This document shows, one piece after another, positions 2,072 to 58,012 of a stretch of 64,000 nucleotides of DNA (the stretch's first letter is position 1; every line of letters begins with the position of its first letter). The notes under the pieces are model-generated. The model searched no databases. It was not told where the DNA came from and worked only from the letters and a program-made list of their open reading frames with translations. The position numbers were made by a program, and so were the translations under genes. Source of the stretch: Apostichopus japonicus (taxonomy: Eukaryota; Echinodermata; Holothuroidea; Aspidochirotida; Stichopodidae); assembly GCF_037975245.1 (NCBI RefSeq), contig NC_092576.1:15501611-15565610 (forward strand), read 5' to 3'.

Positions 2072-8311
<6,240 letters not shown>

Positions 8312-21477: not shown

Positions 21478-23654
21478 ATGTACAATCTACGTCATAGAAG
21501 ACGAGCAGTCCAGGGCCATACAATCATTCAACCCATGCAAACTATGGACAGAGACGGTTTGTCAGTAGAATGGATTAATGGTCATAAAGGTATGCATTTA
21601 ATCTCTTGTACTGGAATATCATTGTTCAAATTGGAGAATGAAGAATGGTGTATTAATTGTTCAATGAACTCCTATTTGATTCACATTAATTTTAATGTGA
21701 GTTTTGGAGCATCAATATATGTTATAGGTGATCTTATTTTCATCAGTACTCAATTAAAGAATCTTGCCCATTGATGTTTTAATTGGGTGTGAGGGGGGGG
21801 GGGTGGGATCCAGACAAAAATAAGTAAATTGAAAATAAATAGAAATTGCTTAAATTATACTGGCTAACAGTCAAGATTCATATCAGGAAGTAAAACTTTG
21901 TGTCACAATTGTGTGGACTTGCTCTGGGGTTTTACTAATTTCATGATCTTGGTTGGCTAAAAGTGTTCTAATTGCAAATGTAGACTCATTGCAAGTGGCA
22001 GACAACATGTATCACTATTTTAAACTTGAAAAATGTCTGAAAAAAATTGTAGCTGTTCTAACAAGTGGCATAAACAAATTGATGTTTAAAATTAAAGCTC
22101 CATCATTGATACATTCTGGGGTATTGAAAGGGTTGAAACATTACATGAACATGCACTCATGAAATAAAACTTGTTCTACTCACACCCCAATATTTTCTAG
22201 GTGAACAACTCCTAGGAAACAAAACTGATTTTAGTATTTTGCTCCTATTTGAAATCATGGAAGCTTGACTTCAAGTGAAAGTAAAGGTTTTCAAAATTTT
22301 TACCACTCTGGAATTAGGATACATATAAGGCTGCAGAATTACAATTAAATCTCCCTGCAGTAAATCAGTATACATAGCCTCATCTGCTATATATGCTTAT
22401 CTCTGCATTAAATATGTACAAATGTTTAACCACTGCATGGCCACAGTTGCTGATGAATGTGTACATTTGCCTAATGTATTTTTATTCTAGGTGTCAGTGT
22501 ACTAATGCTTATGGTTGGTGGTGAACTCATTTCAACACTGCTACAGTGTATTTTGAGGCAAACTTATTTGTGGCCTTAATGAAGCAAATACACTCTTGAG
22601 ATTGACACAATTGAACATGTCAAAATTTAAAATGTCAAAGTAAAGAGTCTTTTGCTCAACATAATCATCAGTATGAGTAGGAGTGGAATTTAATACAGTA
22701 TTAAATTTATCTCTTTATTTATCCCTTGCAAACATGCAGGTAGAGGTGTATTTGCAACCAAAGCAATATACAAAAGAGAGTTTATCACAGAATTCAGAGG
22801 GGACCTCCTCTCCAAGAGAGATGCTGAGATGAGATGTCAGAAAAACATCTCAGACGTAGCATATATGTACTACTTCAAACATCAAGGAATAAACATGTGG
22901 TAATTAGAACTAGATAAATATTTCACATTGTATAGGGGCACATCCCATCTATTGATTCTTGATTTGATAAACATTCCTTCATGACTAATGGGATTTGACA
23001 TCTCCTCACAGTTTGCAAGGTAACAATGAACAAGTTATATCCATGAAACCTTTTCAGAAGTTTGTATGGTGACAAATGACATGAAAACAAGTTGGTTTAC
23101 CTTATTAGATAGTTGCTTGTGTGTGTTTTTATTTTTAAATCTGCATGCACTGTTTATTGTATTGTGAGATGTTCATGTGGCTGTCCACAAGTTATTATAA
23201 CATAAAATGATATCACCTAAAGCCTTACTTAAGTATGTAGTGGTAAGATAAGTGTATGTTTTGTGTATTGCTAAGTAGATGACTGTTAGTGTGACTCTGG
23301 GAATTTGTTACCACTGTTATTAGTTTATTAATGAATTCAGTCAAGATAATGCTACTAATGTAGAAATGTAACATAACCTTATATTTGAACTCAATCTAAA
23401 ACCACTGCCCCTGTCTTTTTTACACTAATTGTTTTTCTTTTTGTGTTTTCTTTTTTTATAGTATTGATGCCTCAAAAGAAGATGGTTCTATCGGACGCCT
23501 TGTTAATGACAACATTTCCTCTGTAGCTAACTGCAGGATGAGAATAATAGTGAAGGACAGCCACCCACATCTTTGCCTTTATGCGACTAAAAATATCCTT
23601 CAAGGAGATGAACTAGAATATGATTATGGAGGATATACCCCATGGCGAAAAAAG
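21478..23654 (+). CDS. SET-domain exons 1-3 of the fusion gene
   Basis: Three exons encode a compact SET domain that begins almost at the N-terminus. The motifs are K-G-R-G-V-F-A (37-43), E-F-R-G-D-L (55-60), Y-M-Y-Y-F (79-83), C-I-D-A-S (91-95), G-R-L-V-N-D-N (102-108) and E-L-E-Y-D-Y-G (141-147). This order and spacing match KMT5A (SET8/PR-Set7), the histone H4K20 monomethyltransferase. Two differences stand out. The NHS motif is N-D-N, replacing the His. The Tyr of the E-Y-x-G-D motif is Phe. Both sit at the cofactor/lysine channel, so activity or product specificity may differ from KMT5A. The long basic N-terminus of KMT5A is absent: only about 26 residues precede the domain, with an R-H-R-R-R cluster. 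Exon phases 1, 2 and 0 are consistent. Confidence 0.85.
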
Positions 23655-26600
23655 GTAAACTTTCATTAAAAACCTCTTTGATCATATCAGCAAGGTATGA
23701 AAGTGTGCAGTATTCAGGTATCCCTTACCAACACAATGCATGCTTAACATTCATACAAGAGCAATATAGGACTACTTATGGAAGTCAATTGTTTAAAGAT
23801 CCAGAATTTCTGCTCTATTTTAGCATTAGCACACAAAACAAGAGCTTGAATGACATATAACTGAATCGAACTGTTTGGATGGCTTCAATATCACTGTATA
23901 ATTCCACCTATGTGAACTTCTTACACCAGTAATATGCTCTTCACTCAACCTTTATGAGGCACAGTCCTTCTTGCTGTAAGCCTTACACGGGTTAATTTCA
24001 TTGGCTACTGAAAATGTGTGTTAGTTAGTTGGTAGCATTCACCTCAAGTAACTTTCCCTTTTGTATTTTTCTTTTGTTGTTTCTTTGATTCCGTAAGCAC
24101 TAGACCCAGGTAGTACAAGTGAAACTGTGCGTGAGTCCTGGGTTTCACAACTGTACAGCATGTGAAATTAAGCTTTCCGTACACCTATTTCAGGCATATG
24201 CAATATGATTCATTCACCAAGTTATTAATACCTTTTCCCACATTGTTATAAAACTCTGTGTATGAAAGGTATTTCAGTATTCACCCTGTCTATTCCACAA
24301 TATCAATTTTTTTTTATCATGAGTTTTCTCCTCATTTTTACACAGACAACCAGTAAAGACAACGAAGTACATGTTACAGAAAAACATAAGGTGGGTATTT
24401 AAAATGTGTTATGAAATTGGGTGAAATGTTAAAATTCTTTTGGGGAAGAAAATTAGGAACAATTATGTTTTAAAATAATTTCAAATCAAGTGGTAACATG
24501 TATCTTTTTTGTTCTTGTTTTTGTGTTCTTTGATATACTTAAAGTAAATAGGCAGTTGTGACAAATATTTTACATAATACCTTTCTATGCAATCTCCTTT
24601 CAAAACAACTATCTATATGCATCCTGTTGCATGTCCATTCAAGGGCGGCGGAAGCACTTTTAATCTGGGGGGGAGGGCACCGACATCAAAGGGCACTTTG
24701 CAGAAATTCTATTGGACTGATGTAGCCTGATATTTAGTACCCTTTATAACTCTTATTGTATTATCTTATTTGCGTATACACATCACTCCATGCCCCCCCC
24801 CCCCCCCTGAAGGAAAACATGCATACTAGCACTGCAATATTCAATGTGCAAACAAGGAACAAGTTTTCTATTGAGACAAATGAGGTGAAATCATGCTAGT
24901 TGCTAATATAGGAATCTTCCGAATTAGAGTTTATTTCTTGTTAATATCTTAACGAATTGTTTCCATTTGAAATAGCTTTGAGTTTGACCCACATAAATTC
25001 ATTATAAGTCAGGGGCGTAGCCAGGATTTGCAAAGTTGTATGCACGACTATCTGAGCGGAGCGCCACCATCGGTTGGCGCGGTGCGCACAAGAAAACTTT
25101 TTGTTGTACAAACCCCTCAGATGGCCGGAAACGGCCCTTCCCGAGTGTTCATTCTGGTTCCCTGGCCTCTTGCTAACTTGAGCCACCTAAATTTTTATGT
25201 AGAAAAAGGGCACATTTTTAACCCTGAGGAAAAGTGGGGGGGCACGTGCCCCCTGTGCCCCCCCAGTTCCGCCGCCCTTGCCATTGATAACTGTCTAATG
25301 TGTTAAAATGTTCATCAAAAATTTCCAATATCGATGAAAATATCTGTTTTATTCCAATTATACTTAAGTTTAAATTAGACCCACAAGTGACCCCGTGTGT
25401 AAGTCCAGTTGTGCCACAACTGTATGTGACTCTGTAATTTGATGTTAACATGACTATTTTGTCGTCATTTTTACACAGACCATTTGTGAAGCCAATGACG
25501 AAATTGTCACAGAAAATAGTAAGGTAGGTATACTAGCCTACATCCATGTACATTGAGATACTTAAAATGCTGTTTGAAAATGAGAAAATTTCATTACAAA
25601 ATAAAAGGAGTGACTGTCCTGTGATTTGAGTAAGTAGGGCACTATATGCAGACCTACAAGTGAATGTGTGTGTGCTCAGTTGACCAAGAACTGTTTTTAA
25701 CACTAGCTCTGGCACAAGCTCTTGAACAATTTTAACCAAAGTTTGATGGTGTGGGTTTCAGAAGACACCCTGTGTTATTGAAATTGATTCAAAACAAGTA
25801 GTAAATCATGTCAATTTTGTATTTGTTATGGTCTTTCTTAGATTTCATGAACATACAACTAGACCCACAAGTGACCCTGTGTGTAAGTCCAGTTGTGCCA
25901 CAACTGTATGTGACTCTGTAATTTGATGTTAACATAACTATTTTGTCGTCATTTTTACACAGACCATTTGTGAAGCCAATGACGAAATTGTCACAGAAAA
26001 TAGTAAGGTAGGTATACAAGCCTACATCCATGTACATTGAGATACTTAAAATGCTGTTTGAAAATGAGAAAATTTCATTACAAAATAAAAGGAGTGACTG
26101 TCCTGTGATTTGAGTAAGTATGGCACTATATTCAGACCTACAAGTGAATGTGTGTGTGCTCAGTTGACCAAGAACTGTTTTTAACACTAGCTCTGGCACA
26201 AGTTCTTGTACAATTTTAACCAAAGTTTGATGGTGTGGGTTTCAGAAGGCACCCTATGTTATTAAAATTAATTAAAAACAAGTTGTAAATCATGTCAATT
26301 TTGTATTTGTTATGGTCTTTCTTTGATTTCATTAACACTTACAACTAGACCCACAAATGACACTGTGTGTAAGTCCAGTTGTGCCACAACTGTATGTGAC
26401 TCTGTAATTTGATGTTAACATGACTATTTTGTCGTCATTTTTACACAGACCATTTGTGAAGCCAATGACGAAATTGTCACAGCAAATAGTAAGGTAGGTA
26501 TACTAGCCTACATCCATGTACATTGAGATACTTAAAATGCTGTTTGAATATGAGAAAATTTCATTACAAAATAAAAGGAGTGACTGTCCTGTGATTTGAG

Positions 26601-29600
26601 TAAGTATGGCACTATATTCAGACCTACAAGTGAATGTGTGTGTGCTCAGTTGACCAAGAACTGTTTTTAACACTAGCTCTGGCACAAGTTCTTGTACAAT
26701 TTTAACCAAAGTTTGATGGTGTGGGTTTGCAGAAGACACCCTATGTTATTAAAATTAATTAAAAACAAGTTGTAAATCATGTCAATTCATTATTATTATT
26801 TTTTTTGGGGGGGGCGGGTTCTTTGATTTCATTAACAATTACACTAGACCCACAAATGACACTGTGTGTAAGTCCAGTTGTGCCACAACTGTATGTGTCT
26901 CTGTAATTTGATGTTAACATAACTATTTTGTCCTCATATTTACACAGACCATTTGTGAAGCCAATGACGAAATTGTCACAGAAAATAGTAAGGTAGGTAT
27001 ACTAACATACATCCATGTACATTGAGATACTTAAAATAATGTTTGAATATGAGAAAATTTCATTACAATATAAAAGGAGTGACTGTCCTGTGATTTGAGT
27101 AAGTATGGCACTATATTCAGACCTACAAGTGAATGTGTGTGTGCTCAGTTGACCAAGAACTGTTTTTAACACTAGCTCTGGCACAAGTTCTTGTACAATT
27201 TTAACCAAAGTTTGATGGTGTGGGTTTCAGAAGGCACCCTATGTTATTAAAATTAATTAAAAACAAGTTGTAAATCATGTCAATTTTGTATTTGTTATGG
27301 TCTTTCTTTGATTTCATTAACACTTACAACTAGACCAACAAGTGACCCTGTGTGTATGTCCAGTTGTGCCACAACTGTATGTGACTCTGTAATTTGATGT
27401 CAACATAACTATTTTGTCGTCATTTTTACACAGACCATTTGTGAAGCCAATGACGAAATTGTCACAGCAAATAGTAAGGTAGGTATACTAGCCTACATCC
27501 ATGTACATTGAGATACTTAAAATGCTGTTTGAATATGAGAAAATTTCATTACAAAATAAAAGGAGTGACTGTCCTGTGATTTGAATAAGTATGGCACTAT
27601 ATTCAGACCTACAAGTGAATGTGTGTGTGCTCAGTTGACCAAGAACTGTTTTTAACACTAGCTCTGGCACAAGTTCTTGTACAATTTTAACCAAAGTTTG
27701 ATGGTGTGGGTTGCAGAAGACACCCTTTGTTATTAAAATTAATTAAAAACAAGTTGTAAATCATGTCAATTCATTATTTTTTTTTGGGGGGGGGGCGGGT
27801 TCTTTGATTTCATTAACAATTACACTAGACCCACAAGTGACCCCGTGTGTATGTCCAGTTGTGCCACAACTGTATGTGACTCTGTAATTTGATGTTAACA
27901 TGACTATTTTGTCCTCATATTTACACAGACCATTTGTGAAGCCAATGACGAAATTGTCACAGAAAATAGTAAGGTAGGTATACTAACATACATCCATGTA
28001 CATTGAGATACTTAAAATGCTGTTTGAATATGAGAAAATTTCATAACAAAATAAAAGGAGTGACTGTCCTGTGATTTGAGTAAGTATGGCACTATATTCA
28101 GACCTACAAGTGAATGTGTGTGTGCTCAGTTGACCAAGAACTGTTTTTAACACTAGCTCTGGCACAAGTTCTTGTACAATTTTAACCAAAGTTTGATGGT
28201 GTGGGTTTCAGAAGGCACCCTATGTTATTAAAATTAATTAAAAACAAGTTGTAAATCATGTCAATTTTGTATTTGTTATGGTCTTTCTTTGATTTCATTA
28301 ACACTTACAACTAGACCAACAAGTGACCCTGTGTGTATGTCCAGTTGTGCCACAACTGTATGTGACTCTGTAATTTGATGTCAACATAACTATTTTGTCG
28401 TCATTTTTACACAGACCATTTGTGAAGCCAATGACGAAATTGTCACAGAAAATAGTAAGGTAGGTATACTAGCCTACATCCATGTACATTGAGATACTTA
28501 AAATGCTGTTTGAAAATGAGAAAATTTCATTACAAAATAAAAGGAGTGACTGTCCTGTGATTTGAGTAAGTATGGCACTATATGCAGACCTACAAGTGAA
28601 TGTGTGTGTGCTCAGTTGACCAAGAACTGTTTTTAACCCTAGCTCTGGCACAAGTTCTTGTACAATTTTAACCAAAGTTTGATGGTGTGGGTTTCAGAAG
28701 GCACCCTATGTTATTAAAATTAATTAAAAACAAGTTGTAAATCATGTCAATTCATTATTATTATTTTTTTGGGGGGGGGGGGGCGGGTTCTTTGATTTCA
28801 TTAACAATTACACTAGACCCACAAATGACACTGTGTGTAAGTCCAGTTGTGCCACAACTGTATGTGACTCTGTAATTTGATGTTAACATAACTATTTTGT
28901 CCTCATATTTACACAGACCATTTGTGAAGCCAATGACGAAATTGTCACAGAAAATAGTAAGGTAGGTATACTAACATACATCCATGTACATTGAGATACT
29001 TAAAATGCTGTTTGAATATGAGAAAATTTCATTACAAAATAAAAGGAGTGACTGTCCTGTGATTTGAGTAAGTATGGCACTATATTCAGACCTACAAGTG
29101 AATGTGTGTGTGCTCAGTTGACCAAGAACTGTTTTTAACACTAGCTCTGGCACAAGTTCTTGTACAATTTTAACCAAAGTTTGATGGTGTGGGTTTCAGA
29201 AGGCACCCTATGTTATTAAAATTAATTAAAAACAAGTTGTAAATCATGTCAATTTTGTATTTGTTATGGTCTTTCTTTGATTTCATTAACACTTACAACT
29301 AGACCAACAAGTGACCCTGTGTGTATGTCCAGTTGTGCCACAACTGTATGTGACTCTGTAATTTGATGTTAACATAACTATTTTGTCCTCATTTTTACAC
29401 AGACCATTTGTGAAGCCAATGACGAAATTGTCACAGCAAATAGTAAGGTAGGTATACTAGCCTACATCCATGTACATTGAGATACTTAAAATGCTGTTTG
29501 AATATGAGAAAATTTCATTACAAAATAAAAGGAGTGACTGTCCTGTGATTTGAATAAGTATGGCACTATATTCAGACCTACAAGTGAATGTGTGTGTGCT

Positions 29601-32600
29601 CAGTTGACCAAGAACTGTTTTTAACACTAGCTCTGGCACAAGTTCTTGTACAATTTTAACCAAAGTTTGATGGTGTGGGTTGCAGAAGACACCCTTTGTT
29701 ATTAAAATTAATTAAAAACAAGTTGTAAATCATGTCAATTCATTATTTTTTTTTTGGGGGGGGGCGGGTTCTTTGATTTCATTAACAATTACACTAGACC
29801 CACAAGTGACCCTGTGTGTAAGTCCAGTTGTGCCACAACTGTATGTGACTCTGTAATTTGATGTTAACATGACTATTTTGTCCTCATATTTACACAGACC
29901 ATTTGTGAAGCCAATGACGAAATTGTCACAGAAAATAGTAAGGTAGGTATACTAACATACATCGATGTACATTGAGATACTTAAAATGCTGTTTGAATAT
30001 GAGAAAATTTCATTACAAAATAAAAGGAGTGACTGTCCTGTGATTTGAGTAAGTATGGCACTATATTCAGACCTACAAGTGAATGTGTGTGTGCTCAGTT
30101 GACCAAGAACTGTTTTTAACACTAGCTCTGGCACAAGTTCTTGTACAATTTTAACCAAAGTTTGATGGTGTGGGTTTGCAGAAGACACCCTATGTTATTA
30201 AAATTAATTAAAAACAAGTTGTAAATCATGTCAATTCATTATTTTTTTTGGGGGGGGGGGCGGGTTCTTTGATTTCATTAACAATTACACTAGACCCACA
30301 AATGACACTGTGTGTAAGTCCAGTTGTGCCACAACTGTATGTGACTCTGTAATTTGATGTTAACATAACTATTTTGTCCTCATATTTACACAGACCATTT
30401 GTGAAGCCAATGACGAAATTGTCACAGAAAATAGTAAGGTAGGTATACTAACATACATCCATGTACATTGAGATACTTAAAATGCTGTTTGAATATGAGA
30501 AAATTTCATTACAAAATAAAAGGAGTGACTGTCCTGTGATTTGAGTAAGTATGGCACTATATTCAGACCTACAAGTGAATGTGTGTGTGCTCAGTTGACC
30601 AAGAACTGTTTTTAACCCTAGCTCTGGCACAAGTTCTTGTACAATTTTAACCAAAGTTTGATGGTGTGGGTTTCAGAAGGCACCCTATGTTATTAAAATT
30701 AATTAAAAACAAGTTGTAAATCATGTCAATTTTGTATTTGTTATGGTCTTTCTTTGATTTCATTAACACTTACAACTAGACCAACAAGTGACCCTGTGTG
30801 TATGTCCAGTTGTGCCACAACTGTATGTGACTCTGTAATTTGATGTTAACATAACTATTTTGTCCTCATTTTTACACAGACCATTTGTGAAGCCAATGAC
30901 GAAATTGTCACAGCAAATAGTAAGGTAGGTATACTAACATACATCCATGTACATTGAGATACTTAAAATGCTGTTTGAATATGAGAAAATTTCATTACAA
31001 AATAAAAGGAGTGACTGTCCTGTGATTTGAGTAAGTATGGCACTATATTCAGACCTACAAGTGAATGTGTGTGTGCTCAGTTGACCAAGAACTGTTTTTA
31101 ACACTAGCTCTGGCACAAGTTCTTGTACAATTTTAACCAAAGTTTGATGGTGTGGGTTGCAGAAGACACCCTATGTTATTAAAATTAATTAAAAACAAGT
31201 TGTAAATCATGTCAATTCAGTAATTTTTTTTTGGGGGGGGGGGGCGGGGGCGGGTTCTTTGATTTCATTAACAATTACACTAGACCCACAAATGACACTG
31301 GGTGTAAGTCCAGTTGTACCACAACTGTATGTGACTCTGTAATTTGATGTTAACATAACTATTTTGTCCTCATTTTTACACAGACCATTTGTGAAGCCAA
31401 TGACGAATTTGTCACAGAAAATAGTAAGGTAGGTATACTAGCCTACATCCATGTACATTGAGATACTTAAAATGCTGCTTGAAAATGAGTAAATTTCATT
31501 ACAAAATAAAAGGAGTGACTGTTCTGTTATTTGAGTAAGTATGGCACTATATGCAGACCCACAATTGAATGTGTGTGTGCTCAGTTGACCAAGAACTGTT
31601 TTTAACCCTAGCTCTGGCACAAGCTCTTGTAAAATTTTAACCAAAGTTTGATGGGTGGGTTTCAGAAGGCACCCTATGTTATTAAAATTAATTAAAAACA
31701 AGTTGTAAATCATGTCAATTTTGTATTTGTTATGGTCTTTCTTTGATTTCATTAACACTTACAACTAGACCCACAAATGACACTGTGTGTAAGTCCAGTT
31801 GTGCCACAACTGTATGTGACTCTGTAATTTGATGTTAACATAACTATTTTGTCCTCATATTTACACAGACCATTTGTGAAGCCAATGACGAAATTGTCAC
31901 AGAAAATAGTAAGGTAGGTATACTAACATACATCCATGTACATTGAGATACTTAAAATGCTGTTTGAATATGAGAAAATTTCATTACAAAATAAAAGGAG
32001 TGACTGTCCTGTGATTTGAGTAAGTATGGCACTATATTCAGACCTACAAGTGAATGTGTGTGTGCTCAGTTGACCAAGAACTGTTTTTAACCCTAGCTCT
32101 GGCACAAGTTCTTGTACAATTTTAACCAAAGTTTGATGGTGTGGGTTTCAGAAGGCACCCTATGTTATTAAAATTAATTAAAAACAAGTTGTAAATCATG
32201 TCAATTTTGTATTTGTTATGGTCTTTCTTTGATTTCATTAACACTTACAACTAGACCAACAAGTGACCCTGTGTGTATGTCCAGTTGTGCCACAACTGTA
32301 TGTGACTCTGTAATTTGATGTTAACATAACTATTTTGTCCTCATTTTTACACAGACCATTTGTGAAGCCAATGACGAAATTGTCACAGCAAATAGTAAGG
32401 TAGGTATACTAACATACATCCATGTACATTGAGATACTTAAAATGCTGTTTGAATATGAGAAAATTTCATTACAAAATAAAAGGAGTGACTGTCCTGTGA
32501 TTTGAGTAAGTATGGCACTATATTCAGACCTACAAGTGAATGTGTGTGTGCTCAGTTGACCAAGAACTGTTTTTAACACTAGCTCTGGCACAAGTTCTTG

Positions 32601-35600
32601 TACAATTTTAACCAAAGTTTGATGGTGTGGGTTGCAGAAGACACCCTATGTTATTAAAATTAATTAAAAACAAGTTGTAAATCATGTCAATTCAGTAATT
32701 TTTTTTTGGGGGGGGGGGCGGGGGCGGGTTCTTTGATTTCATTAACAATTACACTAGACCCACAAATGACACTGGGTGTAAGTCCAGTTGTACCACAACT
32801 GTATGTGACTCTGTAATTTGATGTTAACATAACTATTTTGTCCTCATTTTTACACAGACCATTTGTGAAGCCAATGACGAATTTGTCACAGAAAATAGTA
32901 AGGTAGGTATACTAGCCTACATCCATGTACATTGAGATACTTAAAATGCTGCTTGAAAATGAGTAAATTTCATTACAAAATAAAAGGAGTGACTGTTCTG
33001 TTATTTGAGTAAGTATGGCACTATATGCAGACCCACAATTGAATGTGTGTGTGCTCAGTTGACCAAGAACTGTTTTTAACCCTAGCTCTGGCACAAGCTC
33101 TTGTAAAATTTTAACCAAAGTTTGATGGGTGGGTTTCAGAAGGCACCCTATGTTATTAAAATTAATTAAAAACAAGTTGTAAATCATGTCAATTTTGTAT
33201 TTGTTATGGTCTTTCTTTGATTTCATTAACACTTACAACTAGACCCACAAATGACACTGTGTGTAAGTCCAGTTGTGCCACAACTGTATGTGACTCTGTA
33301 ATTTGATGTTAACATGACTATTTTGTCCTCATTTTTACACAGACCATTTGTGAAGCCAATGACGAAATTGTCACAGAATGTAGTAAGGTAGGTATACTAG
33401 CCTACATCCATGTATATTGAGATACTTAAAATGCTGTTTGAATATGAGAAAATTTCATAACAAAATAAAAGGAGTGACTGTCCTGTGATTTGAGTAAGTA
33501 TGGCACTATATGCAGACCTACAAGTGAATGTGTGTGTGCTCAGTTGACCAAGAACTGTTTTTAACACTAGCTTTGGCCTTGAAAAGAAGCTTCCAACAAT
33601 TGAAATGTGATAACCTTTTGTGGAAGAATATACCACAAATTAACTATTAAAATTAATTGAAATTAATTCATAAATCCAAAGTAATGCTTTAACCCATTGA
33701 AATTTGAACTGTGTTTGAGAATTATTATCAAGTCATGTTGCAAAGTAAGTAGCTTTGTCTTTTCCGTTTGATGTCCTTTTGAATCCTGTAGCAGTGTGTA
33801 CAAGACCTACTGTACATGATACACTGCATGTGAACAAATTGTCCAAACTTAATGCGATTTGGCTTTTACATGCTGTTGTGAAGTCACTACGTAACACATG
33901 CCCTTTCTACTTGAGTCATATCACTCCTTTGTTAAGTGACTCATGCAACAAACAATTTTAAATCATGTAAACTGCATCAAACTGCATTCTGGAATAGTTG
34001 GTGCATTGCTTCCTTTTACTACCTTTACACTAATAACGCAATGTCGAAGCTACTGAAGTGAAGCAAATAGTCTTTTCTTTAGTAAATAGCGAGTTAAACC
34101 TTCAGGAGTCCATATCTACAGGCATCCTCTGTGTGCTGTCTTTGCCTGCTTTTTAATGCTAGTCTGGAACATAGTGAAAGAACAGGTTATATTGTTATAT
34201 TGCTACTTTAATATTGATTACATGTGATACTGATGCTTTGCAATCATAGCATTAAGATGGAAAAAATTTTGACTCAAATTTTGGTCCTTTTTTTGCAAAC
34301 AATAACAAATATGTTTCTTATATTTACTACATATTTCTTCAGGAGAGCATTTCAACCTCAACTTCAACATCATTTACTGGTATGTTTCATATTCATATCT
34401 CTATGATTAAACATTTTCTTGTAAATCCTTGTCGTGTGTTGATAGCTATAGTCCAAATGCATGCATGTTACTTAACTATCAGGCTTATGTGTTCTTTAGC
34501 TATTAACATTTAAATCTAACTACTGTTCAGGCATTATACTGTAGTTAAGATATATCCCTAACTATGTTAAATCTAAACATTTAATAGCTGCAGTAATATC
34601 ATTTACAACTTCTTACACTTTTAACTTACAGAAGACACAGGCGGTGAACTGTACTTTGATGCTGATCTAGGAAAATATCACAACTCCTTACTTGGTAAGT
34701 GCAGCCCAATGTCTTTGAATAAATTGTCTGTATCATATGTAGGTCCCCTTTTTTTTGGATTTTATATTTGAAGATGTATACTATTCGAAACAAATTGTGA
34801 TTATTTTCTTGCAACTAATTATGATAATATACCAAAATGGCATAGTTAAATAGCTTTAAGGGTTAGATGTGGGCTCTCTTCATTAATCTTGAATCTACTA
34901 TAATCACAAAATAAACAAAAAACTTCTAATCGTTTTAACATTGCAGACTCAAACCGTGATGAAGCAGTTTTTTTAGACGAATTGACAGGAAATATGTACT
35001 CATATGGTAAGATACAAACTAGAAGCAAAGCTATTTTAATAGTTATGACTAAAACATTATATGATTTTTGTGAGGTAAACAATGCATTGTAATTGTCTAA
35101 AGATGGAAATCCAACTTTATTTTGTAATCACCAGTGTGAAAATATCTTTACAACTAGTAAACAAAGCATTTTGTACTTTTTAAACTGTTAATTAACATTA
35201 CAAAAATATTTCCTAGTCAAAACTGTAGGCAGGTATTATTCTCAAGCAGAATATATCGCTTACATGTATGAATTCTTATGTGGAGGTAATATCTATAGAA
35301 ATCACTGTTTCTACATGCATACGGTTCTCTGGAAATTATTTTCTGTTTGTTACTGTTTTGAACTATGGTTACCTGAACTTTTTGGAATCAGGAAATGCTT
35401 CAACAAAAAGGAAAGTTATGACTGCTAAAAGAATGTTTAAGGTCAATGCAGGTTCAAGGTAAACAAATAAACGCATTACCAATATTAAAGCAATACACAC
35501 AATCCGAAACAATTTGCATGCATTTCAGACTGTGATAAATAAAATGTGTTATTTCTATCTTTTAAACAGATATCTTGAACAAACCATGTCAGGAAGTAAG

Positions 35601-38600
35601 TGTTGTTATTTCAAAACATTCAATTTAGGTTTTCAATTTTTTCTAACATAAAGTAAGATAAAGGAATGAGCTGCAAGTAATAAACATGTGTAATCCTACC
35701 TTTGTAATCAATGTTTCAACCATGTTACTTCAGGCCGCTTGTCTCCCAGAGACAAAATGACAAATTGTGGAGAAAAGCCATCTTCTAGTGCAGTAACTCT
35801 TCCTTTTTTTTGGCCAAGAAACCTATATTACCTCATGAAGTTTTTATTCAGAACCTTATAAAGGTATCAGTCTCAAGCTTCTATATCGTATCAACAATTA
35901 TGGCTCTGTTTACTTCTCTCATTAAAATTACAAATGCTCTAAAGAGGTTTAATTATCTGTTCACAGTCTCACCCTGAACTGCAACCAATCTTTGAAAGGA
36001 TGCTAGAACAAATGAAGGCTCAGGTATTGTAACTTTGGTATCTAAATGTGATATATGAATGAATAATGAAATTATAAATGGAAAAATGACTGGGAGATAT
36101 TTTAATAAAATTTGTAAAGTGCAAAGAATTGAGGCCAAGATGGGATTCTAAACCAGTGACTTCAGGATTATGGACCTGTGCTTCACCAACTGAGCTACTC
36201 AGCCATATGAAGGTAGCTGTCCCTAATTTCCTAGGCACTTTTCAAATTACAAGTTCTCCTAGTCAGTTTCCCATTTATAATTTCATCACGTGTTTGTTTT
36301 AATGGGGAACTTCTCTGGAAATAACTTCCCATCTGCTTCAGGCTTGTATCAAGTGAAAATTGGTTAATAATGGAGTTATAAAACATTGGGCAAGGTACTG
36401 TCACTTTGACTGGCACCCTTTGCCTGGAAATGAATGAAGAACCTGGTTAAAATAACTTGGCTTTGCCAGTTTCTTATGTATTTTAATAAATGTACTAAGA
36501 ATCTGTTAAAGTCATCTTTTCATTGAATCTTGTAATATGTACCATTATTAAAGGTGACTTTGCTCAGCTGCGAAAATATAAACCAAAGATCAAGTAAGTA
36601 GAGCAGGGATGAGATGACAAGGGGAAAATAGCTTATAAATATTGCACCATATAACATTTAGGAGCTTTATAAAATCCAAAACTTCCTAAAGATGAGTCTC
36701 TCTTTTTATACCCCTCCCCAGGTTTACCTCCTTCCCACTTTAAGACTTGATTTCCCAACAGTAATGTTTGCCTGGGCAGTCAGCCAGTTTGTTAGCTTAG
36801 CAGTGTTATAGCGCTAACTGACAGCTACGATAAGCAATTATACTGGAACACATATTATCACTCAGGAAGTTTTAAGTCAAAGGGTTTTCATTATTAGGTG
36901 ACTTCAGCCTGAAAGTTTTATGACAAGTTCCAGTTTTCCTGAAGTCAAATAATTAATTGACCAATAGGCAACAATAATATTACAAGACACTGACTATTTC
37001 AGATCTCAGACACCATTGTCCAAAATATAAGGTCTAGAACTCTGGATGTAATGTTGTACCATACAAACCAACTATGTTTGCATAAACTTGAATTCAATCA
37101 CAACATTTGTCTTTAAAACTATGTTTGCTTCTAGGTTCCAAAAAGGCTAAAGCATCTTAGCCATATGCAAACAACGGACTATGATAGTGAGGAATGCACC
37201 AGCACTGATGAGGAGGATTTCAGCGATGATTACCTAGACGCATTTAGTGAGAGTGAATCTTCAACAGATGAAGAATCCGAAGAAGAAAGCAGTGAAAATG
37301 AAAAGCCCTCAACAAGTAAAAATCATTCAGGTGGTGTCAAAGTATCTTCCACTTACTATAGTAAAAGTAGGAAAAGAACATGGAACAGACAACACTGTTG
37401 CCTCTTTTGTGAACAAAATGTAACCAAATTACCAAGACATCTAGAAACTCATCATGCTGATGAAATATTGGTAATGAAAGCTATGCTGTTGCCAAAAAGG
37501 TCAGCAGAAAGAAATGCAATTTTAGAAGAGATCAGAAAAAAGGGAGACAATGCCTATAATTGTCGTGTGCTAAAAGAAGGCAAGGGAAAGCTCTTGGTCT
37601 ACAAAAGACCAAAATTAGGCACAATGCATGTGGAAGATTACATTCCTTGCCCAGATTGCCAAGGCTATTTTGCGAAAAAGTCATTGTGGCGACATCAAAA
37701 GAAATGTACCCTAAAAAAAGCAAAGGAAAATCCAACCACATCTCGAACTGCACAGTGTCAAAAGGCTGGTAGGGCATTGCTTCCAACAAAAAGTCCCTGC
37801 AGTGCTAAACTGCAAGAGATACTTGCTGGTATGAGAACTGATAGTGTTGTTGTTACCATAAGAGCAGATTCCTGGATCTGCAAATTAGGAGAGCATCACT
37901 GTGATGATAGCAGCACAATTAATCACAACATTGTTTCAGAAAGAATGAGGCGCATTGCAAGGCTCCTTCTTGAAACACAGCAAATAAATGCATCTATTAA
38001 GTCTGCTAAAGACTTAGTAGACCCAGCACATTTCGATGACGTGATCCTTGGTGTTAACATTTGCTCTGGATTTGACACTTCAAACCAAAACTTTGAAGCA
38101 CCCACACTTGCTAAAAAGCTGGGACAAAGCCTAACTACTTTGGCTGAAATTGTAATTGCAGAATCCATTAAATCATCAGATACCTTGCAGGAGTGCAAAG
38201 CAGAGCAGTTCTTGAAACTAAAGAATCTGCAATGGAAACAAAGAATTGCCACAAAAGTTTATAAGCAACAATGCAAGCAAAAGTGGCAAAAACCAAAGAA
38301 AGTTCCCTTAACAGCCGACACTGTGAAGCTCAATCAGCTACTGACAAACCAAGTTTGTACTACAAAAGAGAAGTTACAAGGTAATGAAGTATCAACATCC
38401 ACTTGGCGGGAGTTGGCTTCTTTAACCCTTGCTCAGCTAATAATGTTCAATCGCCGTAGACCTGGCGAAACACAATATTTGAGAATGTCAGATTATTTAG
38501 AGCAAACAAAGAAAAAGAGAGAGTTCCAAGATGAAATATTTGAATCTCTTCCAATAGCACAAAAGCTGGCAGCAAAGAGGCTTACTCTAATAATGACACG

Positions 38601-39369
38601 TGGAAAACGTGACAGAGGGGTGCCAATCTTGTTAACCCCTGACATGGCAGATTCGGTTAAAGTACTCAACAAAACTCGTCAAATTGCTGGCATCGATCCA
38701 CAAAACCCATACATATTTGCTTGCCCATCAGGAAACTCTGTTCAGCCGCTTCGAGGTTATGATTGTTTGCACAAATACGCGCATTTGTGTGGGGCCAAAA
38801 ATCCTGACAGACTGACTGCCACCAATCTGCGCAAGCATTTAGCAACTCTTTCACAAATCCTTAATCTATCCAACACTGAATTAGAACAATTGGCCAACCA
38901 TTTAGGGCATGATGTAACCGTCCACAAGCAGTACTACCGGCTGCCCCAAGACGTCATATTTCTTGCAAAAGTGAGCAAGCTTTTACTAACTGCTGAGAAG
39001 GGAAAACTTCATGAATTTAAAGGGAGGTCCCTTGAAGAAGTTGAGATTGAGGAAAGCCAACTTCTGTCAGACATAGAAATGTCAGACGGAAATGAGAGTG
39101 ACAACTCTGAATCAAAAGAGCCAACAAAGGCACTTCCAACTAAGAGGGTGAAAATATCTAAAACAATGTGGACAAAAGAGGAAGAGACAGCTGTTATTAA
39201 TGATCCATGCCTTAGAAAGGCTATCAATGCCATGCACCCACCTGTGTCAAAAGATTGCCTTCAAGCAAAGCTAAAGAATTCCTGTCTTAAGCGCAGGTCC
39301 ATAGTACAAATAAAGTCCAAAGTATGGAACATCATACAAAAGAATAAGAGGGAACAAATGAAGTATTAA
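21478..39369 (+). CDS. SET methyltransferase / microexon array / tyrosine-recombinase-like fusion gene
   Basis: Exons: 21478-21589, 22740-22899, 23462-23654, 24346-24390, 17 array microexons between 25479 and 33387, 34343-34379, 34632-34694, 34947-35006, 35392-35458, 35570-35595, 35734-35792, 35967-36023 and 37135-39369. All boundaries are AG/GT and every phase matches. The total is 3879 nt, exactly 1293 codons including the stop. Domain order: KMT5A-like SET (about residues 27-155), sixteen if the diverged one is excluded plus two, i.e. 18 microexon repeats of 15 residues (156-425), Ser/Thr and acidic linkers, two zinc fingers, a tyrosine-recombinase fold, and a SANT/Myb-like end. A nuclear, DNA-bound lysine methyltransferase is the natural reading. 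Similar SET plus 'RRPGE' proteins exist in fish genomes as far as I recall. An acceptor immediately precedes the ATG, so a 5' untranslated exon lies upstream. Whether all microexons enter one mRNA is unknown. The weakest junction is the gtaact donor at 35793. Confidence 0.85.
24346..33387 (+). repeat. array of 18 homologous 45-nt microexons (1 diverged + 17 near-identical)
   Basis: Every unit has a polypyrimidine tract ending TTTACACAG, a 45-nt phase-0 exon and a GTAGGT donor (GTGGGT in the first). Exon starts: 24346 (diverged, TTSKDNEVHVTEKHK), 25479, 25963, 26449, 26948, 27434, 27929, 28415, 28917, 29403, 29898, 30394, 30880, 31384, 31869, 32355, 32858, 33343. The consensus peptide is TICEANDEIVTENSK, net charge about -3. 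E12A occurs in 26449, 27434, 29403, 30880 and 32355. I9F occurs in 31384 and 32858. N13C occurs in 33343. Two intron types occur. Type A contains TTTGTATTTGTTATGG. Type B contains a T-run/G-run (TTTTTTTGGGGGGG...CGGG). Any exon can be skipped or added without shifting frame, so the array sets linker length. Confidence 0.95.
24640..25280. mobile_element. non-autonomous hAT element in the SET gene intron
   Basis: The termini CAAGGGCGGCGGAAGC and GTTCCGCCGCCCTTG are inverted repeats. Its left 260 bp match the left end of the transposase-bearing element starting at 61044 (same order of motifs such as GCACTTTTAATCTGG, CCTTTATAACTCTTATTG and ATACACATCACTCCAT). The middle (about 25013-25160) resembles the GTAGCCAGG MITE, which is truncated or captured. 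The flanks share only CCATT, not a clean 8-bp duplication. It lies between the diverged microexon and the first array microexon. Confidence 0.85.
33400..34340 (+). other. intron after the last array microexon
   Basis: The repeat unit similarity stops at about 33575, roughly 190 bp past the last microexon, inside the usual intron sequence. The remainder to 34342 is unique AT-rich DNA with no supported exon. Confidence 0.6.
36133..36204 (-). mobile_element. tRNA-Met-derived SINE relic
   Basis: Read on the minus strand: GAGTAGCTCAGTTGGTGAAGC (box A type), an anticodon arm with GGTCCATAATCC, then a box B-like GGTTTAGAATCC. The CAT anticodon context resembles elongator tRNA-Met, but the T-arm is degenerate (TTTAGAA in place of TTCGAA). 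It sits in the last intron of the SET fusion gene. Confidence 0.6.
37135..39369 (+). CDS. terminal exon: acidic region, two zinc fingers, tyrosine-recombinase-like domain, SANT-like end
   Basis: After acceptor tttgcttctag the frame is open for 744 codons. Counting from the internal Met at 37165: acidic Ser/Glu-rich segment (residues 7-55), C2H2-type finger (C79, C82, H92, H96/97), C2HC finger (C162, C165, H177, C181), a helical region (about 205-400), then the recombinase fold. Catalytic-type residues are R432 in R-R-P-G-E, K481 in a T-R-G-K-R-D-R-G-V-P hairpin, R556 in T-N-L-R-K-H, H582 in H-L-G-H, and Y590 or Y591. Only the His of the usual H-x-x-R is replaced, by T553. From 668 a W-T-K-E-E-E start and a late V-W-N-I-I match a SANT/Myb-like DNA-binding domain. 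The fold is that of Crypton-type or phage-integrase recombinases. It is likely domesticated, since it is spliced to a SET domain and has no visible transposon ends. Confidence 0.85.
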   Translation, partial: VPKRLKHLSHMQTTDYDSEECTSTDEEDFSDDYLDAFSESESSTDEESEEESSENEKPSTSKNHSGGVKVSSTYYSKSRKRTWNRQHCCLFCEQNVTKLPRHLETHHADEILVMKAMLLPKRSAERNAILEEIRKKGDNAYNCRVLKEGKGKLLVYKRPKLGTMHVEDYIPCPDCQGYFAKKSLWRHQKKCTLKKAKENPTTSRTAQCQKAGRALLPTKSPCSAKLQEILAGMRTDSVVVTIRADSWICKLGEHHCDDSSTINHNIVSERMRRIARLLLETQQINASIKSAKDLVDPAHFDDVILGVNICSGFDTSNQNFEAPTLAKKLGQSLTTLAEIVIAESIKSSDTLQECKAEQFLKLKNLQWKQRIATKVYKQQCKQKWQKPKKVPLTADTVKLNQLLTNQVCTTKEKLQGNEVSTSTWRELASLTLAQLIMFNRRRPGETQYLRMSDYLEQTKKKREFQDEIFESLPIAQKLAAKRLTLIMTRGKRDRGVPILLTPDMADSVKVLNKTRQIAGIDPQNPYIFACPSGNSVQPLRGYDCLHKYAHLCGAKNPDRLTATNLRKHLATLSQILNLSNTELEQLANHLGHDVTVHKQYYRLPQDVIFLAKVSKLLLTAEKGKLHEFKGRSLEEVEIEESQLLSDIEMSDGNESDNSESKEPTKALPTKRVKISKTMWTKEEETAVINDPCLRKAINAMHPPVSKDCLQAKLKNSCLKRRSIVQIKSKVWNIIQKNKREQMKY

Positions 39370-45980: not shown

Positions 45981-46989
45981 ACACCGGTTGCTATGGCATT
46001 TTGAACGGGCTTCCTTCGTGCATGTAAATGCGATGGTGAGATTTGGAGGCCGGGGGGGGGGGGGGGTATTTGGAGGAACGAAGGAAGGACCGAGAGGAGG
46101 TTAAAGGAATGTGAGTGTGGGTGCCAATGAGGGATGTGGAGGGAACGACCCGTAGCCAGGAATTCGGAGTTGGAAGGGGCACCAATAATTGAATGAGAGG
46201 AGTGGGACCACAATTTAAGGAGGGATTAGATGGGATAGAGGGTAGAGTAGTTTGAACGGCGAGTGATAGAGGGTAGCTAGGCTACTGTGTCCGGCCAGGT
46301 TTCTGGCCTGAGGAGGAAATATACATCGATAGCAACATCGAGCAAGCACTGGATGCTGCCATATAGTCCTTCTGTTGTTGTAGTTTTGTTTTTTCTTTGA
46401 ATAAACCGAATTGTTAGGTACACGATGCTGTAGTTTTTTTTTAACGTAACATTTGCCCTCTCTCTCTCTCACACACAAACATGCAGGATTCACCTCACCG
46501 TAAGCACACGACGTACGAGCGGAAGTGACGTTTCTAAAATACGAGGACCGTACGTATTTTGCATGAGACGCACCCGAACACACAAAAACAGTCAACTATA
46601 CACAGAATCATTCGACGATAAAGATATGAACTAGCAGTGTCTCGTGCATTACAGGGGAGAGAAGAGTGGGATGGGTGTACATGGTTCCCAATAGTTACCA
46701 CATCAATAAATTTCACTCGGGCACAGCTGGCGGCACTGACAATATTGAACATTGCTCTGATTCATGTCTCACCCCCCCCCCCCCCCGGCCGCTCCTCCGC
46801 TCTCCTCTCACATCTGAAACCTGTACCGAAGTACCTAGTCTCCCCACTCAAGTCATTATTACTCTCACCTCTGTCATTCCACTCCCCACTCCCCCAAACC
46901 CCTTCCACCCCTAATCCTACTCTAATCTCAATCTCCTATGAACTGCACCCACCTCCTGCTATATTGCAGAACCACTTTTATATTTCCTA

Positions 46990-47555
46990 TTGAAGACTGT
47001 GGTAATATCTAGTTATGACATTGCATTATATATTTATCTTTCCTATTGAACACTGTTGTGTTACCTAGTTATGATACTGCATTATAACGTTTCTATTTCC
47101 TATTGCAGACTGTGGTATAATACCTAGTTATGATACTTCATTTTATCTTGTATATTTCTTATTGAAGAATGTGGTATAATACATAGTTATGATACTGCAT
47201 TATATGTACCTTTATATTTCCTATTGCAGACTGTGGTATAATACCTAGTTATGATACTTCATTTTATCTTGTATATTTCTTATTGAAGAATGTGGTATAA
47301 TACATAGTTATGATACTGCATTATATGTACCTTTATATTTCCTATTGCAGACTGTGGTATAATACCTAGTTATGATACTTCATTTTATCTTGTATATTTC
47401 TTATTGAAGAATGTGGTATAATACATAGTTATGATACTGCATTATATGTACCTTTATATTTCCTATTGCAGACTGTGGTATAATACATAGTTATGATACT
47501 GCATTATACTTTTATATTTCCATTGAAGACTGTGGTATAATACCTAGTTATATAT
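46990..47555. repeat. 121-bp minisatellite built of two 60-bp half units
   Basis: TATTGCAGACTGTGG occurs at 47101, 47222, 47343 and 47464 (period 121). Each unit consists of two diverged halves, both carrying GTGGTATAATAC.TAGTTATG. The flanking copies are more degenerate. Non-coding. Confidence 0.9.
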
Positions 47556-47932: not shown

Positions 47933-48349
47933 TTGCAAGCCATGTGGGACAAACACTGCATAATATATCAGCGTATTAATCGTAATTTATACGCGTATTA
48001 ATTGGAATATATACGCGAATATATTATTAGCCAATCATATGGCCCAAATATATCCGCGTATTAATTCGAATATATACACGTATTTACTCGAATATATACA
48101 CGTATTAAATAGATTACATATGGGGATAAAATCCAATATATGCACGGATTAATTAGAATATACACGAAAACACATTTCCGCTCTTGCTGTGTACATATAC
48201 CAACGATAAATGTTTTGGCGGGCTCGCGAGATCGCTTCATAAAGCGAAACTTTACACATGTACAACACATATATATTCGAATTAATACGCGTATATATTC
48301 GAACCTACGCGGATATATTATGCGGTGTTTGTCACACATGGCTTGCCAT
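47933..48349. mobile_element. palindromic MITE with 9-bp target duplication (CGCGTATTAATTCGAATA family)
   Basis: Long terminal inverted repeats: GCAAGCCATGTG.GACAAACAC.GCATAATATAT at the left, and its complement ending GGCTTGCCAT at the right. Perfect flanking repeat ACACCTGTA at 47924-47932 and 48350-48358. The interior is a string of short palindromes such as TATACGCGTATTAATTCGAATA. The 9-bp duplication points to a MULE-like or related class, but the class is inferred. Confidence 0.88.
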
Positions 48350-51115: not shown

Positions 51116-51732
51116 TCAACACTCTAACAATATGGTACTTGATTGTACTTCCCCGTTTACCATTTCACAAAAAGACGAACCATGAATCCAAGTTTTCATA
51201 AATTTGACTTCTAATCTACTTAAATCAATTTCATTGCGCTCTTGCATTTCTCTTTTAATCAATTTCACTACCTCCTTTTCATCAATAATACTCTTACCAA
51301 ACACAAGTTGACACCTTCTATTCCAAACTACTTTTCTAACGATACCAAATACAAAGACCAGTCTTTCCCATGTCCGCCTATGTAATCCAGGGTTAAGAAC
51401 CGCGAGTAAGAAGGCATCACAAGTGAGGAAAACATTCCTACCAACTACCCTTTCAACAACTTTATATACAAAGGATATGACTCTTGATATGTTTGTACAC
51501 TCCCAAAACACGTGCCTAATCCTCTCTGGTTTTGCATAATGAAACACATACCATCACCGATTTCGCACCTGTGCAGCTTCTCTGCAGTGCACATTGTCCC
51601 GTGAGTAATTCTCCAATTTAAAACTTTAAACTTATTACATAAACTAGGGTGAAACACCATTTTCCAAATACTAGCCCAGCCGCAAGATGGATCATTGCTT
51701 TGAACCCTAGATATAACCGTTTCAGTGTCCAA
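51116..51732 (-). pseudogene. decayed non-LTR retrotransposon: 3' end of reverse-transcriptase ORF (zf-RVT region)
   Basis: Two minus-strand frames (51732-51445 and 51547-51116) overlap across a frameshift near 51540. Together they read W-K-M-V-F-H-P-S-L-C-N-K-F-K-V-L-N-W-R-I, then T-A-E-K-L-H-R-C-E-I-G-D-G-M-C, then E-R-I-R-H-V-F-W-E-C. That is the zinc-binding C-terminal region found after the reverse transcriptase in LINE ORF2 (W...K...W R...L...C...C...E..H.F..C). The upstream polymerase is not present and the frame is broken, so it is a dead fragment. Confidence 0.75.
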
Positions 51733-51837
51733 ATACTAACCAATTCCTTGATCCTAGAAAGCTCTGTAAACAAAGGGCCTATCGTGTGCAAGAACTGGAT
51801 AATTGAAATCGCTGTACTCTACGGTGTTGTTGTGTTA

Positions 51838-52907: not shown

Positions 52908-53984
52908 ACCCGGCCGTATGGAAAGCCATTTTAACATTTAATCGGGAATTTTAGATATCTAAAATTGTTTCTTATTTCAGATATCTGAAATTGAATTCGA
53001 GATATCTTAAATAGATTTCGAGATATCTGAAATTCTAATTCAGATATCTGAAATTGAATTCGAGATGTCTTATATAGATTTCGAGATATCTGAAATTGAA
53101 TTCGAGATATCTAAAATAGATTTCGAGATATCTGAAATTCTTATTCAGATATCTGAAATTCAATTCGAGATATCTGAAATTGAATTCGAGATATCCGAAA
53201 TTGAATTCGAGATATCTGAAATTCTATTTCAGATATCTGAAATTTAATTCGAGATATCTGAAATTGAATTCGAGATATCTGAAATGCATATGAATAAATT
53301 TCCGATTAAATGTTAAAATGGCACGTATGGAAAGCCATTTTAACATTTAATCGGGAAATTTCAGATATCTGTTATTGAATTCGAGATATCTGAAATTGAA
53401 TTCGAGATATCTAAAATTCTATTTCAAATATCTGAAATTGAATTCGAGATATCTGAAATTGAATTCGAGATATCTGAAAATGAATTCGAGATATCTGAAA
53501 TTTTATTTCAGATATCTGAAATTGAATTCGAGATATCTGAAATTCAATTCGAGATATCTGAAATTGAATTCGAGATATCTGAAATTGAATTCGAGATATC
53601 TGAAAATGAATTCGAGATATCTGAAATTTTATTTCAGATATCTGAAATTGAATTCGAGATATCTGAAATTCAATTCGAGATATCTGAAATTCAATTCGAG
53701 ATATCTGAAATTCTATTTCAGATATCTTAAATTGAATTCGAGATATCTGAAATTGAATTCGAGATATCTGAAATTGAATTCGAGATATCTCGAATTGAAT
53801 TTCAGATATCTGAAATTCCCTGGTATTTCGAGATATCTGAAATTGATTTTAAGATATCTGCAATTATTTGTAGATATCTTAAATAAATTGGAGATATCTG
53901 TATTTTAATTTGAGATATCTGAAATTATTTCGAGATATCTGAAATTCCTTATTAAATGTTAAAACGGCTTTCCATACGGCCGGG
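52908..53984. mobile_element. foldback element filled with a 21-bp GATATC satellite
   Basis: Inverted ends: CCCGGCCGTATGGAAAGCC with TTTTAACATTTAATCGGG at the left, and the complement ending GGCCGGG at 53984. A partial copy of both ends meets head to head at 53305-53360, as if two elements were fused. Between them lie about 45 copies of AGATATCTGAAATTGAATTCG and variants, itself palindromic (AGATATCT, GAATTC). The 177-codon frame across it merely reads the satellite. Confidence 0.85.
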
Positions 53985-55953: not shown

Positions 55954-56758
55954 ATGGCAAAACATATGGAACAAACACCGCATAATATATCCGCGGATTA
56001 ACTTAAAGATATACGCGTATGAATTCGAATTTATACACGTATATATTATAAGCCATTCATAAGGCTTAAATATATCCGCGTATTAATTCGAATATAAACA
56101 CGTATTAATTCGAATACATATGAGGATTATTTCGAATATATACACGTATTGCACCCAAGCCGAAAAGGTGTGAGGTTATATTTGTTCTTAACGTGAAGCA
56201 TATTATGCATTTATATGCCAGGGTGTTATAACACACTAACACGTGTTATGTTTTGGGAGCATGCGAGAGCTAGATATGTTAAAGATACAATACAGTAAAT
56301 CGTAGTGGTATTATATATATATATTTTTTATACATATATTTTTTTTTTTTTTTAATATTTTTATTTAATATAAAATATATTTTTATTTATTTATTTTTTA
56401 TATATTTTTAACACAGGCCGCAATAAAATGTGCCTCTAGCATAACACGTGTTATCATGTTATAACACAGATGCATATAAATGCGCAATATATTCAAGTCG
56501 AAAACGCTATTATAAGCAACTGTACAATTCGGTTCGGGTGCGTATTAAGGCATGCTGTTGTGTAGATCAAGTACGTTTGGCCGTCAAATAGAGACCAATC
56601 TCTCATCTATTGCACTGACGAAGCTACAATATGATCACTCTCGAAACTCGCTTGTGTAAACTATAAAACATGCCAGTGATTGTCTGAATTAAAACGTGTA
56701 TATATTCATATTAATTCGAGGATAAATTATGCGGTGTTTGTCCCATATGGCTTGTCAT
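55954..56758. mobile_element. second palindromic element of the CGCGTATTAATTCGAATA family, 805 bp
   Basis: The left end ATGGCAAAACATATGGAACA plus AACACCGCATAATATATCC mirrors the right end (GGATAAATTATGCGGTGTTTG... ending CTTGTCAT). The ends match those of 47933-48349. The centre holds a further inverted pair (TGCATTTATATGCCA...GTTATAACAC and its complement near 56445-56480) with TAACACGTGTTA palindromes, probably a nested element. No clear target duplication. Confidence 0.8.
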
Positions 56759-57780: not shown

Positions 57781-57839
57781 TGCTGTCTAAACTAAAGTTG
57801 TTGCTGCTATTTGACCATGTTGCTGTTGTTCGTTTATGT

Positions 57840-58012
57840 CTTAACATACGTTGATGCCTAAACTCACGTTGATGTTTAAACTCACGTTGATGCCTAAACT
57901 CACGTTGATTTTTAAACTCACGTTGATGCCTAAACTCACGTTGATGTTTAAATTTACGTTAATGACTAAACTCACGTTGATGTCTAAACTCACGGTGTTG
58001 TCTAAACTTTGG
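57840..58012. repeat. 18-bp minisatellite (ACGTTGATGCCTAAACTC)n
   Basis: About nine units alternating CCTAAACTC and TTTAAACTC forms, degenerate at both ends. Non-coding. Confidence 0.9.

Follow-up and report, generated by a model that had tools for sequence, protein, structure and literature searches.

Coding variable-number tandem repeats (VNTRs) made of whole exons are already known, and KIV-2 of LPA is a described example (PMC11201333). The present analysis concerns a window of 64 kb, the whole stretch analysed (64,000 nucleotides of Apostichopus japonicus contig NC_092576.1), and within it a tandem array of 17 near-identical 45-nt exons in a predicted SET-domain gene. The array resembles KIV-2 in that tandem units contain complete coding exons with their introns, copy number sets protein length, and near-identical subtypes occur. 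The KIV-2 unit, however, measures 5.6 kb and has two exons (160 and 182 bp) encoding a folded kringle, whereas the sea cucumber unit measures about 486 bp and has one 45-nt exon encoding a 15-mer that is perhaps unstructured; a choice of exons within the allele is suggested for it in addition.

A second comparison is offered by the PEVK exons of titin and the TTN segmental duplication (PMC6469411, PMC9142044). In the parts of these sources drawn upon here, exons are repeated, splicing alters the length of a spring-like segment, and an intragenic block is duplicated with copy-number variation. Titin is, however, a muscle protein whose PEVK exons are numerous (113 in the human annotation) and whose repeat block spans nine exons, whereas the sea cucumber gene encodes a chromatin-type protein and repeats a single exon type 17 times.

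Schistosoma micro-exon genes (MEGs) are described, in the section of the source used, as having very short exons, mostly multiples of three in length, that are alternatively spliced (PMC10526429). They encode secreted proteins with a signal peptide, whereas the sea cucumber gene is a SET-domain fusion without an obvious one; no hydrophobic stretch was visible by eye in its N terminus (MYNLRHRRRAVQG...), and the gene was therefore not classed as a MEG. Work by Davis et al. from 1988 is said, to judge by its title, to concern tandemly repeated exons encoding 81-base repeats in a schistosome. Human KMT5A (SETD8) shares the SET domain and gave the best PDB matches (E 1e-25) of P0001, the database protein closest to the window gene, which differs from KMT5A in its long fused C-terminal half, variable linker and altered NHS motif. 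No comparable array was found in titles or the beginnings of abstracts, which does not prove its absence from the literature. What is novel here is the tiny exon, the high copy number of one exon type, the SET-fusion setting and the apparent recurrence.

The array is genuine and consists of near-identical 45-nt coding exons in tandem (Table 1). Tandem Repeats Finder (TRF) returned it as one array with a score of 14099 for the 486-bp unit, far beyond chance, and chance repeats were ruled out as its source. By direct scan, nine of the 17 copies equal the consensus exon TICEANDEIVTENSK, seven are one base off and one is two bases off. An AG acceptor precedes every copy and GTAGGTATA, with the GTAGGT donor, directly follows it; three acceptor variants occur, and the donors are identical in all 17. 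The 16 unit spacings range from 484 to 504 bp and the introns from 439 to 459 nt, each tandem unit being a complete exon plus intron, and retention of any of the 16 array introns would introduce an in-frame stop. The preliminary description of this DNA had placed the array at 24346..33387, with units of 485–504 bp that each carried an acceptor, a 45-nt exon and a GTAGGT donor. The 17 near-identical exons and these elements were recovered, but the near-identical copies begin only at 25479, and the lower limit of the spacing had to be adjusted as given above.

All 17 array exons are exactly 45 nt long with phase 0-0, and the frame is thus kept at any unit number. Together with exon 0, a divergent 45-nt exon upstream, they are in frame with the SET exons before them and the exons after them, in agreement with the earlier statement that these are symmetric coding exons within one gene. 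The gene model comprises three upstream exons, the 18 45-nt exons and six downstream exons, and its frame closes: the exons sum to 3753 nt, or 1250 codons plus stop, with borders consistent with P0001 and with the 60-nt exon that is absent from P0001 and present in models of a sister gene. The 1293 codons previously given were not reproduced. Open exon-like stretches with AG/GT borders were noted at 35217-35285 (69 nt) and 35392-35458 (67 nt), absent from the database proteins seen, and may account for part of that larger total.

Two unit types, mostly alternating, were told apart at 26 diagnostic alignment columns (12 of them within a single insertion), the unit groups that define the columns having been chosen by the analyst. 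Unit 10 switches type internally, unit 7 is a long-type unit with short-type sequence at its exon, and smaller mixtures of types were seen in units 1, 3, 5, 6, 13, 16 and 17. Units 11–13 recur head to tail as units 14–16, with exact runs of 955 bp at offset 1475 and 608 bp at offset 1474 and no substitution. The block copy and the chimeric units 7 and 10 carry clear marks of what would be recent unequal recombination, and the unequal crossing-over invoked earlier finds its counterpart here.

In the part of PMC5638244 relied upon, heterozygosity of A. japonicus is estimated at 1.59% from k-mers and at 0.73% from mapping, a value that the authors call an underestimate. About 11 to 23 differences would be expected between two average alleles over 1,475 bp, against no observed substitution, and under an exponential coalescent the chance of zero substitutions is 0.04 to 0.085. 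Since the block contains no substitution, most alleles are probably older than the latest gain of three exons, and polymorphism in length is to be expected; gene conversion or sequence falsely duplicated during assembly may explain the identity instead.

Unit number was compared across database gene models. The sister gene is represented by nine cluster representatives (P0003–P0011), each on a 21.65-Mb contig. They cover the first 391 residues of the last exon and then end, with an identity to the window of about 98% in this part (measured directly for P0003). The nine models thus stop midway through that exon, their final residues being KWQKQRKFP, and the sister gene may be a truncated copy in which SET, array and zinc fingers are retained.

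The nine models are 717, 732, 732, 747, 747, 747, 762, 762 and 807 aa long and carry 5 to 11 array units each, compared with two in P0001, so that at the level of annotation the claimed 15-residue steps were borne out. By unit type, the shorter models read EAFFF, EAEVFF, EAFFKF, EAEVEFF and EAEVFFF, and the longer ones EVFFFKF, EAEVEFKF, EAEVFFKF and EAEVEAAFFFF. All nine strings are ordered subsets of the 12-unit order EAEVEAAFFFKF, from which no single letter can be dropped without breaking the fit. None of them is a subset of the window order EEAEAEEEAEEAFEAFC, and the sister array has therefore diverged from the window array in number and order.

An array also appears in a model of another locus-tag series: P0012 (290-kb contig, locus tag BSL78_18941) reads EEAF plus a partial unit, that is, four full units. 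The BSL78 series is presumably that of the 2017 assembly. P0001 (EE) and P0012 fit both orders and do not distinguish the arrays, and in the counts of 2, 4 or up to 11 units among these other models, differences of splicing, locus and assembly are not separable. A search with the array region, in which the 8000 candidates with the most words in common were scored, returned 10 proteins, all from A. japonicus.

An exon-level coding array in tandem, which bears the marks of a VNTR and gives a linker varying in 15-residue steps, is considered the probable explanation. A symmetric 45-nt exon, a relative of exon 0, would have been duplicated together with its intron and, judging by the relations among units, multiplied by out-of-register recombination. 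Because all copies share the same core splice signals and phase 0-0, any subset can be joined in frame, and the annotated models of the window gene and its sister use different subsets. The outcome would be a protein pool with an acidic linker varying by 15 residues, through splicing and probably also by allele. The term exon-level VNTR, already used in the preliminary description, suits the anatomy (whole-exon units, frame, recombination), while the evidence on unit number comes from annotation.

Of the 45 nt of exon 0, 30 agree with the array exon, as do 6 of its 15 residues, and the introns flanking exon 0 align in part to the array unit. Nonsynonymous and synonymous divergence between the two exons were 0.38 (dN) and 0.77 (dS) over 15 codons, which is too short for a conclusion. 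In P0001 and P0003–P0011, exon 0 carries N where the window has H. The intron between exon 0 and the array contains perfect 14-nt inverted repeats, CAAGGGCGGCGGAA and TTCCGCCGCCCTTG, 613 bp apart (24640-25280), possibly belonging to a small terminal-inverted-repeat element inserted there.

The last coding exon matched P0001 (A. japonicus, 1005 aa) best in the database, at 743 of 744 residues. P0001 follows the order SET, exon 0, two array exons, ESISTSTSTSFT and later exons, leaving out the 60-nt exon. Five residue differences from P0001 were spotted in the window: G50R, Y56F, K88I, N169H and one V to I. Three changes fall in the 160-nt SET exon a and one in the 744-aa last exon. SET exon a has R50, F56 and I88 (22775-22777, 22793-22795 and 22889-22891) where P0001 and the nine sister models have G, Y and K, and Y56F is confined to the window copy, being absent from P0001 and P0003–P0011. 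F56 replaces the tyrosine of the ExYxG motif, which we take to be catalytic in SET8.

In P0001 the SET domain matched Pfam SET at E 9e-19, and KMT5A was the closest of the PDB chains to it. The NHS motif of KMT5A contacts the cofactor; here it reads NDN, with D in place of H. The downstream exon had been called a recombinase exon, a label that goes back to a motif. Searches of Pfam, PHROGs and PDB sequences gave no recombinase match for it, and hhalign to one lambda integrase sequence gave a probability of 0.1, a single-sequence template being a weak test. What we take to be a tyrosine-recombinase-like order in the 744-aa exon consists of R near 442, K 491, R566, H592 and Y601; the H-to-Y spacing is 9, and the HxxR position reads TxxR. 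This half also holds motifs that we presume to be zinc-finger-like, two of them with CxxC, and a weak Myb-like match at the C terminus (E 0.12 to TBF1) was the only search-derived match among the motifs of the last exon. As part of the explanation judged probable above, the encoded protein would join a KMT5A-like SET domain through an acidic linker to a large C-terminal half with zinc fingers, putatively derived from a recombinase.

P0002, a 61% paralog, begins inside the SET domain, with a Pfam SET match below the cut-off. Between the SET end (PWRKK) and the counterpart of ESISTSTSTSFT it has a 17-residue repeat in five copies; a different 17-residue repeat, in four copies, lies between the counterpart of the 57-nt exon and the last exon. 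Both sites are exon borders in the window gene, the first being the position of the 45-nt array, and the repeats would be tandem 51-nt exons. Further homologues of the 744-aa exon were P0013 from Lytechinus, P0014 from Acropora and P0016 from Neodiprion, together with P0015 and P0017. No SET match was present in any of these five in precomputed annotation (for P0013–P0016 also by Pfam search), and pattern matching found no copy of the 15-residue repeat in them. Some are partial, P0013 starting inside the recombinase-like half, and the absence of SET there consequently says little.

Two male-biased kmt5a copies, kmt5a-a and kmt5a-b, are reported from a candidate sex-determining region of the sea cucumber in the portion of PMC9128100 used. 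It is conceivable, and regarded as rather unlikely, that the linker in this SET and putative recombinase family serves as a nursery in which microexon VNTRs arise recurrently (here 17 near-identical copies and a divergent one, in the paralog two 17-residue arrays of five and four copies), so that the acidic tether of a chromatin protein is adjusted time and again by evolution and splicing; the male-biased pair would possibly be members.

Several points weigh against the array acting as a VNTR with variable linker length. The isoforms are database gene models, i.e., annotation and not reads or cDNA, and are seen as cluster representatives, behind which stand 30 sequences in the case of P0011 and 26 in that of P0002. 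As P0001 has only two units, it may be that splicing usually leaves out the greater part of the array, or that fewer units are present in that assembly. The five residue differences mark the window gene, as far as can be read from its sequence, as another allele or copy than P0001, and because P0001 and the sister gene lie on contigs that differ in length and possibly come from different assemblies, the sister gene could be a diverged allele. The 51-nt exons of the paralog are deduced from its protein, and a search with the linker of P0002 recovered, from 7465 candidates, P0002 alone and no isoforms with other 17-residue counts. Lastly, no purifying selection was detected inside the array by diversity windows, site classes or splice dinucleotides over the 17 units, and selection was accordingly dropped as proof of array function.

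Nucleotide diversity (pi) among units was 0.020 in the exon compared with 0.044 in the upstream and 0.038 in the downstream flank, a value as low being found in 111 of 461 sliding 45-column windows. The four sites that vary in the exon are all nonsynonymous (chance 0.43), and the probability that the splice dinucleotides would be intact in all copies by chance, given the observed variation, was 0.60. Undetectable constraint and variable sites that all alter the protein are what a neutral intronic satellite bearing an exon would produce, with recombination resizing the array, copies chosen at random and linker length without consequence. Nor do identical donors and only three acceptor variants give the spliceosome much core-site basis for choice. 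However, exon 0 has kept its frame and 45-nt length with only 6 of its 15 residues matching the array, and different repeats in the same linker of the paralog are unexpected under random growth, although a mutational hot spot would fit them too. This neutral account is given somewhat less than an even chance.

A functional tether, in which regulation of, or selection on, the number of units sets how far SET lies from the C-terminal half, is considered doubtful. It would agree with the symmetric exons, the isoform models in 15-residue steps, the recurrence in the paralog and an acidic linker that may be disordered: encoded by 18 exons, the linker has 270 aa, a net charge of -46, 18 cysteines and 18 S/T-x-x-D/E sites, and falls on the disordered side of the charge-hydropathy boundary. 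It is opposed by the missing selection signal, by the putative nature of any activity at both ends, and by the D that SET has where the NHS motif of KMT5A has H. The preliminary description had inferred an array acting as an adjustable tether, which found no support, as constraint inside the array was undetectable and the recombinase label was not confirmed. The neutral satellite and the functional tether are the two possible endings of the exon-level VNTR explanation.

It is also possible, and deemed quite unlikely, that real transcripts skip the array mostly or wholly and that the many models arose artefactually where short reads mapped ambiguously. Identical exons cannot be phased with such reads, only two units are present in P0001, and the model P0012 begins with residues matching array intron sequence. 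On the other hand, all ten linker-spanning models of the window gene or its sister (P0001 and P0003–P0011) contain exon 0 and at least two array units, and the type variants E, A, V, F and K come in one consistent order across nine models. An assembly artefact, with one unit or the 1,475-bp block falsely duplicated in tandem, would fit the lack of substitutions between units 11–13 and 14–16 (a 1-bp offset aside), but is highly improbable in view of the 65 variable alignment columns, structured types and chimeras among the 17 units, the arrays in the sister models and P0012, and the HiFi reads, whose mean length of 14.7 kb exceeds the array, used for one published assembly, perhaps not that of the window, according to the part of PMC10344927 consulted.

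Under the exon-level VNTR explanation, the locus would be a clean natural case in which unequal recombination and, according to the gene models, exon choice hit the same unit in exact 15-residue steps, in a chromatin-type protein instead of a muscle or plasma protein. The units are tagged by their sequence (E, A, F and C in the window; E, A, V, F and K in the sister), and single cDNAs would reveal which kinds of copy are joined. It could then be asked whether skipping is random or the spliceosome prefers certain positions, and whether linker length is under selection.

Table 1. Coding exons of the window gene and parts of the tandem array (positions in the window).
Feature	Position	Strand	Size and structure	Basis or remark
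First coding exon (MYNLRHRRR...NGHKG)	21478..21589	+	112 nt, phase-1 end	start and border consistent with P0001
SET exon a (RGVFATKAIYKREFITEFRGD...INMC)	22740..22899	+	160 nt	SET of P0001 matches Pfam SET and KMT5A structures
SET exon b (IDASKEDGS...YDYGGYTPWRKK)	23462..23654	+	193 nt, phase-0 end	
Exon 0 (TTSKDNEVHVTEKHK)	24346..24390	+	divergent 45-nt exon, donor GTGGGT	in P0001 and P0003-P0011
Tandem array	25376..33577	+	16.7 units of ~486 bp	TRF
17 microexons	25479..33387	+	45 nt, phase 0-0	direct scan, splice-site check, frame model
Microexon starts 1-9	25479, 25963, 26449, 26948, 27434, 27929, 28415, 28917, 29403	+		
Microexon starts 10-17	29898, 30394, 30880, 31384, 31869, 32355, 32858, 33343	+		
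Block of units 11-13	30289..31763	+	~1,475 bp, head-to-tail copy = units 14-16	block ends approximate
Exon ESISTSTSTSFT	34343..34379	+	37 nt	in P0001 and P0003-P0011
Exon EDTGGELYFDADLGKYHNSLL	34632..34694	+	63 nt	
Exon DSNRDEAVFLDELTGNMYSY	34947..35006	+	60 nt	in P0003-P0011, not in P0001
Exon DILNKPCQE	35570..35595	+	26 nt	in P0001
Exon SHPELQPIFERMLEQMKAQ	35967..36023	+	57 nt	
Last coding exon	37135..39369	+	744 aa	motif order like that of tyrosine recombinases, two zinc-finger-like motifs with CxxC, Myb-like C terminus (all putative)

Elsewhere, neither tRNA genes nor Rfam families at gathering threshold were found within the window. A fragment on the minus strand at 51448-51735, with a sub-threshold zf-RVT match (E 2e-4), is likely a dead non-LTR retrotransposon. 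TRF reported more tandem arrays at 52979-53946 (21-bp unit), 46974-47551 (59/121 bp), 4131-4862 (13/18 bp) and 57831-58008 (18 bp). It also found a similar 22-bp unit, AATATATACACGTATTAAT-like, at 47962-48017, 48047-48162 and 56069-56150, in places about 8 kb apart.

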